Source of the DNA: Romboutsia ilealis
GTDB taxonomy: Bacteria; Bacillota; Clostridia; Peptostreptococcales; Peptostreptococcaceae
Reading direction: 5' to 3'
NCBI RefSeq assembly: GCF_900015215.1
Contig: NZ_LN555523.1
Span: 1,554,381 to 1,618,380, forward strand
DNA length: 64,000 bases
Made by a program: the position numbers and the translations under genes. Every line of letters begins with the position of its first letter. Position 1 is the first letter of the stretch. Below are positions 50,901-54,011 of the stretch, piece after piece. The notes below the pieces were generated by a model that had not been told where the DNA came from, did not search any database, and saw only the letters and a program-made list of their open reading frames with translations.

Positions 50901-51004
50901 ATTTTTCCCCCTTTATAAAGTACTCTATATTAATTATGCTTAATATTTTAAAAATATATTGAAACAATCTTGTAAAAATGCTAAATTAAATATAATAGAA
51001 TATT

Positions 51005-51180
51005 TTTAGGAGAGTGATGGAAAATGGACCATAGTCCTTTGGGAGGACAGAACTTAACAACCATCACTTATTTATTGTCTTTATTTAGTTAATTTTTTAT
51101 TTTGTTTATATAAATCAACTATTTAATAGATAATATTAAGTGATGAGATTTATATAAAACTTAATAAAGGATGGTTTCAA
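51005..51180 (+). promoter_or_regulatory. Structured leader RNA upstream of corA with mutually exclusive helices
   Basis: AGTGATGG (51013-51020) is perfectly complementary to CCATCACT (51061-51068), enclosing an inner stem GTCCT/AGGAC. CATCACTTA (51062-51070) is also perfectly complementary to TAAGTGATG (51137-51145). In addition CCATC (51061-51065) complements GATGG in the corA ribosome site (51170-51174). So one strand can choose between three partners, the usual design of a switch. It does not match M-box, fluoride or other riboswitches I know. A 22-codon ORF (start MDHSPLGG, at 51024) lies inside and could be a leader peptide. Confidence 0.55.
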
Positions 51181-52116
51181 ATGATAAGGTACTATAAAAC
51201 TATTGAAAATAAATTGGAAAAACTAAATTCTTTTGAAGAAGGATGTTGGATAAATCTTGTTGAACCTAACCAAAGTGAAATTAACGAAATTGCTAATTTA
51301 CTAAATATAGATATAGATAGTATAAAATCTGCACTAGATGAAGAAGAACGTTCAAGAATAGATGTTGAAGACAATCATACACTTATACTTATAGATATAC
51401 CAGTTGATGAAAGTGATGATAAATCTTCTCATTATACTACTATTCCTTTAGGTATAATTCTTCTTGAAAATGCCTTACTAACTGTTTGTACTGCTCAAAC
51501 TAAAATCTTAAATGATTTTATAGTAGGTCATGTTAAAGAGTTTTACACTTATAAAAAAACTAGATTCATACTTCAAATTCTTCATAAAAATGCAACTTAT
51601 TATCTTCACTACTTAAGAAGAATAAATAAGATGACAACTATTATAGAAAAAGAAATCTATAATTCTATGAAAAATAAGCAACTTATCCAACTTCTTGAAT
51701 TAGAAAAATCACTAGTATACTTCTCTACTTCACTTAAGGCTAATGAACTGGTTTTAAATAAGATGATTCGTACAAGTAGTATAAAAAAATACTCAGAAGA
51801 TGAAGATTTACTAGAAGATGTTTTAGTAGAAAATAGACAGGCCGTTGAAATGGCAACAATTTATGGAGATATATTAAGTAGAATCATGGATGCATTTAGT
51901 GCTATAATAAGTAACAATCAAAATGGCGTTATGCAATTTCTTACATCAGTAACATTAATAACTACTATACCAACTATTATATCAGGGTTCTTTGGTATGA
52001 ACGTTGGAGGTATACCTTATGCTAATGATGTAAATGGTTTTTGGATTGTTATGTTAATTACAACTTTAATTTGTTTAGTTATAACATTTTTCATGTCTAG
52101 GAACAAGTTACTATAG
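51181..52116 (+). CDS. CorA-family divalent metal transporter
   Basis: A 311-residue protein of the CorA family: a large N-terminal cytoplasmic domain with CorA-like strands (GCWINLVEPNQSEINEIANLL), long helices, two C-terminal membrane segments and the conserved loop signature GMNVGGIPY (GMN at ~281). It forms pentameric channels for Mg2+, sometimes Co2+ or Ni2+. AAAGGATGG is the ribosome site, itself part of a possible switch. Its leader of about 170 bases is structured. It converges on the TPR gene. Confidence 0.92.
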   Translation: MIRYYKTIENKLEKLNSFEEGCWINLVEPNQSEINEIANLLNIDIDSIKSALDEEERSRIDVEDNHTLILIDIPVDESDDKSSHYTTIPLGIILLENALLTVCTAQTKILNDFIVGHVKEFYTYKKTRFILQILHKNATYYLHYLRRINKMTTIIEKEIYNSMKNKQLIQLLELEKSLVYFSTSLKANELVLNKMIRTSSIKKYSEDEDLLEDVLVENRQAVEMATIYGDILSRIMDAFSAIISNNQNGVMQFLTSVTLITTIPTIISGFFGMNVGGIPYANDVNGFWIVMLITTLICLVITFFMSRNKLL

Positions 52117-52121
52117 ATTTA

Positions 52122-52155
52122 AAATAAAAAAGAAAGCATGCGCTTTCTTTTTTAT
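52122..52155. terminator. Bidirectional terminator between corA and TPR gene
   Basis: AAAAAAGAAAGC and GCTTTCTTTTTT form a perfect stem around ATGC, overlapping the TPR gene's stop codon. Confidence 0.85.
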
Positions 52156-54011
52156 TTATCTATTATCATATCTGTTATACTCTCTTCAAACATATTCTCT
52201 ATATCTTCATTTATATCTAGTATATATATAGGAACATATTCATCATCATCTTTTGCTCTTTCTTCTAATTCAAATTGCGCTATTAATGACTTGTGGAAAT
52301 CTATATTTAAATTTGGCATTTTACTTAATATATCTTTACTATCTTCATAATTTCTATTTCCTAATGATGTATACATATCTAAGCTCTTTTTATAATATAG
52401 CCATGCTAACATATACTCACATCTTGAATCTTCAAATCTAAGACCTTCTTTAAAATATTTCTCAGCTTCGTTGTATTCATTTAGTCTTAAATTTAATAGT
52501 CCTAAGTTATATATAGATTCTATACATTTTTTACTTCTAGATTTTTCATACCAATACTTAGCATTATCATATTCTTTGTAATGAATATCGTATATTAATC
52601 CTAACATATGCTCTGAATATGTATTTGCATCATTTGCGGGTATTTCAAAATATTTTTTTGCCTCTTCATACTTACCTTCATCAAAATATAATTTACCCAA
52701 GTATATATATGCATTTATATTATTTTTACTTGTTGCTATTTCAAAATATTTTTTTGCTTCTTCGTTATCTCCTAAATCTAGATAAATCTGAGCTATTTTA
52801 TAGCTTGAGTTTGAATCTCCATTTTCGCTAGCTTTTTTATACCATATTATTGCTTCATCATAGTTTTCAAACTCTTCATATATATTACCAATTTTAATTT
52901 GACATCCCACACTATCACTTTGTCTTAAATAAAAAGATAATGCTTTTTCTTTCTCATCAGTTTTATAATATAAATCTCCTAAGTTTTCAAATGATTCTCT
53001 ACATCCATTTTCTATGGCTTGCATATAATACATTTTTGCTTCTTCATAATTTTCTTCTTCAAAATATAAACCTGCTAAGTTATTTTTAGCTTCAACCATT
53101 TCACTTTCTACACACATTGTATAGTATTCTTTAGCTTTTTCAATTTCATTTTCTTTATTGTATAAATTGGCTAATCTAAATTTTGAATGTATATGATCTT
53201 TATCACAAGCTTTTTTATAGTATTCTATAGCATCCTCATATTCTTCACGTCTATCATAAATATAAGCTAATCTATATTGAGACTTAGTATGGCCTTGATC
53301 TGCACTTTTTTTATAATATCTTTCTGCCTCATCTAGATTATTATTTTTTTCCATTATAAGGCCTATATTAAAACATCCTTTATCATTACCAATTTTATGT
53401 AGATATTTATAAAGAGAGATTGCCTCTTTTTCATCTTTATTATTTTGATTTATAATAGCTAGATTATATTTGCAATTTTCCTCTAACATTATTGAGCCTT
53501 TTTTATAGTATTTAAAGGCATTCTCCTCATCTTTTAACACTGTGTATAGTACACCTAAGTTAAAACATGCTATAGGTAAACTTGAATCTGATGCTTCTAT
53601 TAACCATTCTTCAGCTTTTTTATATTTCATTAATTTAAAATAAGATACGCCTAGGTTATTTTGTGCCTTTAGATGTCCTTCTTTTGCTGCCTTTTCATAC
53701 CAATAAAGACAGTGTTCATATGCATCTACATTAAAATACATATTGCCTATATCAAATGCTGCATCTATTATTCCATTTTTATATGCTCTAGAATACCACT
53801 CTTCTGCTTCACTATATTTCTTTTTGTCATAGTATATATTAGCTAAAGCATATTGAGATTTTGCATAATCATATTCAGCTGCAATCTTATATTGTTTTAT
53901 TGCATTATCTATTTTACCTATTTTTTCAAAAAAAGTTCCTTTTGTATGATATATCATAGGATCTTTAGGTATGTTTTTTATTTTATCTAAAGAAGATTTT
54001 ATATCACTCAT
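52152..54011 (-). CDS. Tetratricopeptide/Sel1-repeat protein (619 aa)
   Basis: A soluble helical repeat protein. At least 14 repeats of about 34-36 residues run from near residue 20 to 560, with W/Y-Y-x-KA and A-x-x-x-LG patterns (SQYALANIYYDKKKYSEAEE, AQNNLGVSYFKLMKYKKAEE). Mixed TPR and Sel1-like features; each repeat forms a helix pair. There is no signal peptide or catalytic domain. It probably serves as a scaffold for protein interactions; the partner is unknown. AGGGAGT precedes the ATG. Confidence 0.85.
   Translation of the reverse strand: MSDIKSSLDKIKNIPKDPMIYHTKGTFFEKIGKIDNAIKQYKIAAEYDYAKSQYALANIYYDKKKYSEAEEWYSRAYKNGIIDAAFDIGNMYFNVDAYEHCLYWYEKAAKEGHLKAQNNLGVSYFKLMKYKKAEEWLIEASDSSLPIACFNLGVLYTVLKDEENAFKYYKKGSIMLEENCKYNLAIINQNNKDEKEAISLYKYLHKIGNDKGCFNIGLIMEKNNNLDEAERYYKKSADQGHTKSQYRLAYIYDRREEYEDAIEYYKKACDKDHIHSKFRLANLYNKENEIEKAKEYYTMCVESEMVEAKNNLAGLYFEEENYEEAKMYYMQAIENGCRESFENLGDLYYKTDEKEKALSFYLRQSDSVGCQIKIGNIYEEFENYDEAIIWYKKASENGDSNSSYKIAQIYLDLGDNEEAKKYFEIATSKNNINAYIYLGKLYFDEGKYEEAKKYFEIPANDANTYSEHMLGLIYDIHYKEYDNAKYWYEKSRSKKCIESIYNLGLLNLRLNEYNEAEKYFKEGLRFEDSRCEYMLAWLYYKKSLDMYTSLGNRNYEDSKDILSKMPNLNIDFHKSLIAQFELEERAKDDDEYVPIYILDINEDIENMFEESITDMIIDK

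Follow-up and report, generated by a model that had tools for sequence, protein, structure and literature searches.

In the window, by which we mean the whole 64,000-nucleotide stretch of Romboutsia ilealis DNA analysed here, a corA gene is preceded by a leader that contains a short ORF with its own Shine-Dalgarno sequence (SD) and segments that can pair in alternative ways. The CorA of R. timonensis is 99% identical to that of the window. The mapped elements, in window coordinates, are as follows:

50959..50987, + strand: candidate promoter TTGAAA-17-TAAATT, from a consensus scan in which the number of sites was not above regional chance
51008..51012, + strand: leader-ORF SD, AGGAG, conserved among the aligned relatives
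51013..51020, + strand: 5′ arm of helix H1 (region 1), AGTGATGG, pairing with 51061-51068
51024..51092, + strand: leader ORF of 22 codons, MDHSPLGGQNLTTITYLLSLFS, with conserved Asp2 and Pro5 (ORF comparison)
51061..51068, + strand: 3′ arm of H1, pairing with 51013..51020
51062..51080, + strand: 5′ arm of helix H2 (region 2), at the end of the leader ORF (covariation; duplex test)
51086..51121, + strand: hairpin H4 inside H2, arms 51086-51095 and 51112-51121 (double changes in 3/7 pairs)
51093..51116, + strand: 5′ arm of helix H3, the anti-SD strand (minimum-energy fold)
51128..51145, + strand: 3′ arm of H2 (region 3; covariation and duplex test)
51147..51170, + strand: 3′ arm of H3, over the corA SD (minimum-energy fold)
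51167..51174, + strand: SD region of corA, AAGGATGG (sequence)
51181..52116, + strand: corA, 311 aa (Pfam CorA PF01544, E 5e-58)

By eye, the leader of L021 has a similarly placed TTGATT-17-TATTAT upstream. A terminator-like hairpin lies at window positions 52122-52157, between corA and a converging repeat-protein gene. The 177 nt from 51009 to 51185 out-folded 200/200 dinucleotide shuffles (z −3.95). A 7-mer with at least three G/C and perfect complements at two other places arose in 3/2000 shuffles, and at least one 8-bp pair in 95/2000.

The original prediction described a switch in which one strand could pair with three places, and the elements that it named are present: AGTGATGG (51013-51020), CCATCACTTA (51061-51070), TAAGTGATG (51137-51145) and GATGG (51170-51174), together with GTCCT from 51034, AGGAC from 51044, GAACTTAACAA from 51050 and the ORF at 51024-51092. 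Two of the three pairings are conserved, namely H1 (AGUGAUGG/CCAUCACU) and H2 (CAUCACUUA..UCU/AGAUAAUAUUAAGUGAUG), which spans 18-19 nt and exceeds the length first given. The third, which joins CCATC to GATGG at the corA ribosome site, lacks conservation: most aligned relatives have GGATGTGTTGCC instead at this position, and the conserved mask of the SD is H3, made up of GAUUUAUAUAAAACUUAAUAAAGG and the U/A-rich strand 51093-51116. The central idea of mutually exclusive helices is supported, with H1+H3 (corA SD masked) excluding H2+H4 (SD open).

Covariation in the helices, proposed as a check at the time, was found in part: H2 and H4 show compensatory changes and H1+H3 show none beyond shuffles. 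Among 16 sequences, both sides had changed in 6/25 pairs of H2+H4, with 10 such cells; in 500 shuffles this cell count was never reached (0/500), the number of pairs was reached in 15/500 and the covariation score in 1/500. Pairing was possible in 85.7% of the H2+H4 cells and in 27-53% when the partners were slid. An opposing measure was that further pair types were rarer than in most shuffles (491/500 as high or higher). H1+H3 was 93.9% paired and too invariant to covary, its covariation being not above shuffles, and RNAalifold on alignment A2 returned chiefly H1 + H3 with little covariation. By eye, the H4 pairing is held by different sequences in other genera. In duplex tests on 21 Peptostreptococcaceae representatives, two or three from several genera, H2 with H4 outscored 95 or more of 100 shuffles in 21/21 (mean z −4.8), H1 in 10 and H3 in 13. 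The same test on a wider set of corA leaders gave H1 in 20/27, H2 in 8/20 and H3 in 7/13 testable leaders, and in leaders before mgtE, H1 passed at this level in 13/14.

A search for the leader before corA in related genomes had also been proposed, and it is conserved there. We found a CorA match in 65/71 Peptostreptococcaceae genomes and compared the upstream regions of 59 strong orthologues. An SD-preceded MDxxP ORF was present in 42/59 regions, against a chance expectation of 0.06 (mean; max 1) in 100 shuffle rounds. It was absent before the other 17/59 corA genes, which include all nine of genus g14 and L045; in six of genus g14, an upstream reading frame ends 22-99 nt before corA. The peptides begin, for example, MDHSPLR, MDSYPLQ, MDASPLS, MDTSPLRREFF (Clostridioides difficile) or MDSIPIRLFR (a Terrisporobacter). 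Asp2 and Pro5 occur in 32/32 distinct ORFs of 16-24 codons. As these ORFs were picked by that very motif, conservation of the two residues is in part circular, but the synonymous variation is free of this circularity: Asp2 is encoded by GAC in 20 and GAT in 12 ORFs, and Pro5 by CCG in 17, CCC in 6, CCT in 5 and CCA in 4. By this computation, the N-terminus of the leader ORF, Met-Asp-x-x-Pro, is under selection at the peptide level.

RNA model R1, for which the motif was not required, yet which was built from 16 motif-bearing sequences, matched 38 genomes, all carrying the MDxxP ORF and all among the 42. Over 247 genomes of the order, R1 located the RNA in Peptostreptococcaceae only (38 genomes, under strict filters that may lose weak matches), at one site per genome besides opposite-strand echoes of the same sites. 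A leader DNA pattern run over 391 genomes of the class gave 3 matches, all in Peptostreptococcaceae. Because both kinds of match are confined to this family, the RNA looks family-specific as judged from sequence, whereas the peptide motif and the architecture appear to travel and to be widespread in Clostridia. Among 60 named loci near the window's CorA, the strict motif was present in 18, consisting of 17 Peptostreptococcaceae and Anaeromonas, and was absent from many uncultured Bacilli. A second weak DNA match in the window's own genome (L002, E 8e-4) was set aside, as by eye it looks like A/T-rich coding sequence.

Outside Peptostreptococcaceae, we examined corA in all 89 genomes concerned of the 95 with a CorA match of E 1e-60 or better among 291 genomes of the class. 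An SD-preceded M[DE]xxP ORF was found in 22/89, all with Asp, and was absent from 67/89; chance gave a mean of 0.53 and a maximum of 3 in 100 shuffle rounds, and the reverse complement gave 0. The motif was first noticed on 24 of the 89 (13 with motif) and was present in 9 of the 65 fetched later. (Asp2, Pro5) was the top residue pair, with 22 occurrences compared with 5 for the next. Typical peptides are MDCDPDSNYH, MDADPGEK, MDTDPDTNYY and MDADPKRTN. One of the 22, the L217 leader (MDSYPSILNLKE), showed no response in the folding test and may be a chance occurrence. Four leaders in one family (L114, L116, L117 and L119) offer by eye a compact 2:3 versus 3:4 choice, GAGUAUCUUUUGAC/GUCAAAAGCUACUC versus GCUACUCU/AGGGUAGC, and the 3:4 duplex is reached in at most 5 of 100 shuffles in L116, L117 and L119, not in L114. 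Four Bacillaceae corA genes (L302, L303, L304 and L305) failed the strict motif; their leaders, upstream of position 601, use a TTG start codon and contain GPEPS or KEPDPD. MgtL, the leader peptide of mgtA, has the sequence MEPDPTPLP, which these Bacillaceae peptides resemble; their relationship to the MDxxP leaders is only suggestive. In L302 and L305, the corA SD faces competition from a helix between GAGGAAGTC and a GACTTCCTC-type strand.

We also looked at mgtE, another Mg2+ transporter gene. In the 30 best-scoring of the mgtE loci found, an M[DE]xxP ORF with an SD preceded the gene in 14 (chance mean 0.14, max 2 in 200 shuffle rounds; reverse complement 0), and (Asp2, Pro5) was again the top residue pair (14 versus 3 for the next). 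The peptides include MDSSPLP, MDPVPLP, MDSGPLP and MDYDPLP, and 11/14 have a second proline, Pro7. The mgtE of the window's own genome is without such a leader. A DNA pattern modelled on the corA leaders (GGTGA, 1-8 nt, TGGAY NNN GAY CC) had 63 sites in 53 of 391 genomes of the class, compared with 11 for the reversed pattern. After a mechanical filter, 18 free-standing short ORFs were left, 12 before corA, 2 before mgtE, 1 before a CNNM/CorC gene and 3 before other genes; 45/63 sites failed, some of them unjudgeable since 26 loci had only ~100 nt upstream, and the upstream-stop rule alone excluded three further corA sites and one further mgtE site. As the pattern was derived from corA, matches before this gene are partly expected, whereas those before mgtE and CNNM are not. 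The CNNM case is single: in L220, a MDDDPADVDSN leader (112-201, +) is followed by a CNNM/CorC_HlyC gene (281-1579, +). A match reading VDIDPVNML before a deformylase-like gene was rejected, as in three loci it is the in-frame terminus of a long ORF lying upstream, which we take to be PriA, and the match VDDDPRAAYFEQ is presumably the end of PyrB.

An M-box (ykoK) riboswitch (RF00380) lies upstream of the leader in 10/20 scanned loci, all chosen as leader-bearing; nine of the ten are corA loci, one with the variant leader MECDTGN, and one is an mgtE locus. In G061 (Peptostreptococcaceae), too, an M-box at 738685-738844 is followed by the leader MDSGPEP and then by this corA at 739188. The M-box, like the leaders, is associated with Mg2+ transporter genes, which it controls, but it binds Mg2+ directly and has no match in the window. 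It was present in 19/71 Peptostreptococcaceae genomes and was not found by the same search in the window's own genome. An M-box with uORFs has been described for Mycobacterium tuberculosis (PMC12810186). Where M-box and leader occur together, the gene may be under two distinct Mg2+ sensors in series. The tie to a metal that was originally suggested is borne out to the extent that the M-box upstream at leader loci makes a link to Mg2+ likely. Close to the corA locus of another family there is a fluoride riboswitch match (RF01734; L100:1390-1461, − strand; 36.5 bits, cut-off 34).

The leader is real and conserved, and it reads as a leader-peptide attenuator, not as a ligand-binding riboswitch; the evidence favours the leader-peptide mechanism that the original prediction had offered last. 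The computed support consists of the conservation of the ORF at the peptide level, the exclusive helices, the H2/H4 covariation and the link to several Mg2+ transporter families. Three traits of Mg2+ leader-peptide attenuators are found here: the leader ORF with its own SD stands directly before a Mg2+ transporter gene; its N-terminus is of the acidic/proline type, although sparse compared with MgtL; and exclusive folds of the mgtQ type, one masking the downstream SD, are indicated by H2/H4 covariation, the duplex tests and the energy fold. We consider that the corA leader is probably a ribosome-read translational attenuator of a magnesium transporter gene, with low Mg2+ as the proposed signal. 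Since a like leader precedes unrelated Mg2+-transporter genes in many related bacteria, translation of the tiny peptide may itself be the Mg2+ sensor.

In the direction of control that we infer, ribosomes would start in vivo on the short ORF with the N-terminus Met-Asp-x-x-Pro. With no ribosome, H1 would join the leader start region to the ORF end, H3 would mask the corA SD and the gene would be off. A ribosome pausing or falling off at about codons 2-6 would cover region 1 and leave region 2 free; H2 (with H4) would then form or persist, H3 would be kept from forming and the gene would be on. If the whole ORF were translated, region 2 would be covered, H3 would form and the gene would be off. 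Low Mg2+ would act through the acidic/proline N-terminus, which would destabilise or pause the ribosome, the presumed sensor, as reported for Salmonella mgtQ and mgtL. Masking of the SD suggests translational control, rather than Rho-dependent termination of the mgtL/corL type.

Mg2+-reading leader peptides have been described for Proteobacteria, mainly enteric (PMC8092293, PMC11552253), and an mgtQ-like ORF is mentioned for Brucella (PMC8092293). The description of Salmonella mgtQ-mgtB has in common with the leaders reported here a short ORF with a strong SD before a Mg2+ transporter gene, control at the level of translation, an acidic residue at position 2, and stem-loops 1:2 + 3:4 (RBS masked) that exclude 2:3 (RBS free; PMC8092293). 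By analogy, the proposed switch logic matches the reported mgtQ model, though the mgtQ Pro codon is described as unneeded (PMC8092293). mgtQ differs in having 8 codons with Asp2 and Glu5 and in lying inside the mgtCBRU operon (PMC8092293), whereas the leaders here have 12-50 codons with Asp2 and Pro5, are found in Bacillota, where they precede corA, mgtE and a CNNM gene, and follow an M-box in half of the scanned loci (10/20). The corL leader of E. coli and Salmonella also precedes corA, can adopt two alternative folds and is described as conserved in an N-terminal region with a single proline, but it has a UUG start, is subject to Rho-dependent termination in the leader and belongs to enteric bacteria, and its description names no Asp-x-x-Pro peptide (PMC11552253). 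In mgtL-mgtA, too, acidic residues and prolines are described as destabilising their own translation upstream of a Mg2+ transporter gene (PMC11552253); there, however, control is at the level of transcription (Rho), and in the Peptostreptococcaceae motif such residues are fewer, with a single Asp and a single Pro.

The same attenuator could in principle read another early-elongation signal, such as prolyl-tRNA, EF-P status, polyamines or a drug. The conserved Pro5 and the second proline of the mgtE leaders (Pro7 in 11/14) speak for this, and Salmonella mgtP is described as responding to charged tRNA-Pro (PMC8092293). We nevertheless regard it as unlikely: Asp2 is kept as strictly as Pro5, a lone Pro codon would be a weak tRNA sensor and all four Pro codons are used, and the genes downstream are Mg2+ transporters, with an M-box at 10/20 scanned loci.

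The proposed attenuator requires that the position of the ribosome bears on the corA SD, and folding predictions speak to this with different strength in different groups. In a ribosome walk over the wider corA leaders (27 leaders, 3 dropped for length), placing the P-site on codons 3 and 5 left the SD more accessible than placing it on codons 10 and 12 in 18/24 leaders, with 2 opposite (p 4e-5; 15% in shuffles); the same walk gave 10/14 for and 0 opposite in mgtE leaders (p 9e-4; 8% in shuffles) and was weak in Peptostreptococcaceae, with 7/21 for and 2 opposite (p 0.23; 17% in shuffles), all three P values ignoring relatedness. In the leader of the window itself, predicted SD openness is 0.01 and rises to no more than 0.25 with an early ribosome. 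We also folded nascent RNA for 19 of the 21 Peptostreptococcaceae representatives, two being left out. When the 3′ arm of H3 was not yet made, H2 was present in 19/19 leaders with or without an early ribosome, which indicates that the ribosome is not the maker of H2 at that stage; with a ribosome on codon 12, H2 was down to 10/19. In the full-length RNA, H1+H3 win, and H2 (at least 8 bp) was present in 1/19 free RNAs and 5/19 with an early ribosome. The clearest computed effect in Peptostreptococcaceae is therefore the predicted removal of H2 by a ribosome deep in the ORF. Equilibrium folding was tested as a complete account of the mechanism in this family and is unsupported, given that H1+H3 is mostly preferred even with an early ribosome, and the proposed switch would have to rely on the order of folding.

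A ribosome at the stop codon opened the SD in many members too, which allows the opposite direction of control, in which translation of the full leader opens the corA SD, through coupling or the stop-codon ribosome, and early abortion closes it. This polarity agrees with the predicted opening of the SD by a ribosome on the last codons in many leaders, but it leaves H2 without a role and the conserved part of the ORF is the N-terminus. Terminating ribosomes are also short-lived. As corL and mgtL are reported to have the other polarity (PMC11552253), we consider the reverse direction quite improbable.

As the original prediction had stated, no known riboswitch matches the leader: the Rfam riboswitches (M-box, NiCo, yybP-ykoY and others) gave no match in the window at the gathering cut-off, and at E up to 10 there were two sub-threshold matches near the leader, both with E above 5. 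A metal-binding riboswitch (Mg2+, Co2+ or Ni2+), in which the H1 hairpin would house the aptamer and H2/H3 would serve as expression platform, is very unlikely: although the leader folds well, its exclusive helices adjoin a divalent-metal channel gene and the lack of an Rfam match would permit a new class, the H1 loop is coding sequence in an ORF that varies between 16 and 24 codons, the fixed parts are codons 2 and 5 with synonymous third positions, and the same ORF motif occurs with unrelated RNA sequence before other corA and mgtE genes. The suggested ligand pocket is unsupported, as the fixed positions are those of the two codons, with synonymous change, and the supposed pocket loop is unconserved. 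Of the inner stem GTCCT/AGGAC and its conserved-looking loops, the stem is only partly kept, and relatives have variable coding sequence where the GAACTTAACAA loop lies.

Returning to the Mg2+-responsive attenuator, we lean somewhat towards a wider reading, namely that Bacillota have their own widespread Mg2+-sensing leader peptides (Met-Asp-x-x-Pro) ahead of the genes of three or more unrelated Mg2+ transporter families (CorA, MgtE and CNNM/CorC), often behind an M-box, and that these arose independently of enterobacterial MgtL, CorL and MgtQ. If so, a single transcript would carry two Mg2+ sensors, with an RNA aptamer acting on transcription and a destabilised ribosome acting on translation; ribosome stability would be a general bacterial Mg2+ gauge, with natural variants at hand for testing the key residues; and this would account for how corA is controlled in Romboutsia, Clostridioides and their relatives. 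Among titles and the starts of abstracts, we found no description of leaders of this kind ahead of corA or mgtE in clostridia. Two RNA-motif screens of genomes, one of which includes Clostridioides difficile (PMC11109978) and the other of which is PMC8632094, do not mention corA in their main texts, and no corA motif stands in the passages compared, an unnamed candidate in the supplements being possible.

A mini-stem is located at and after Pro5 in the leader ORF. By eye, and uncounted, it reads UCCU/AGGA in the window (51034-51048), UCCG/CGGA in many relatives and UCCGA/UCGGA in another genus, and is absent in some; such a stem could slow the ribosome at this point.
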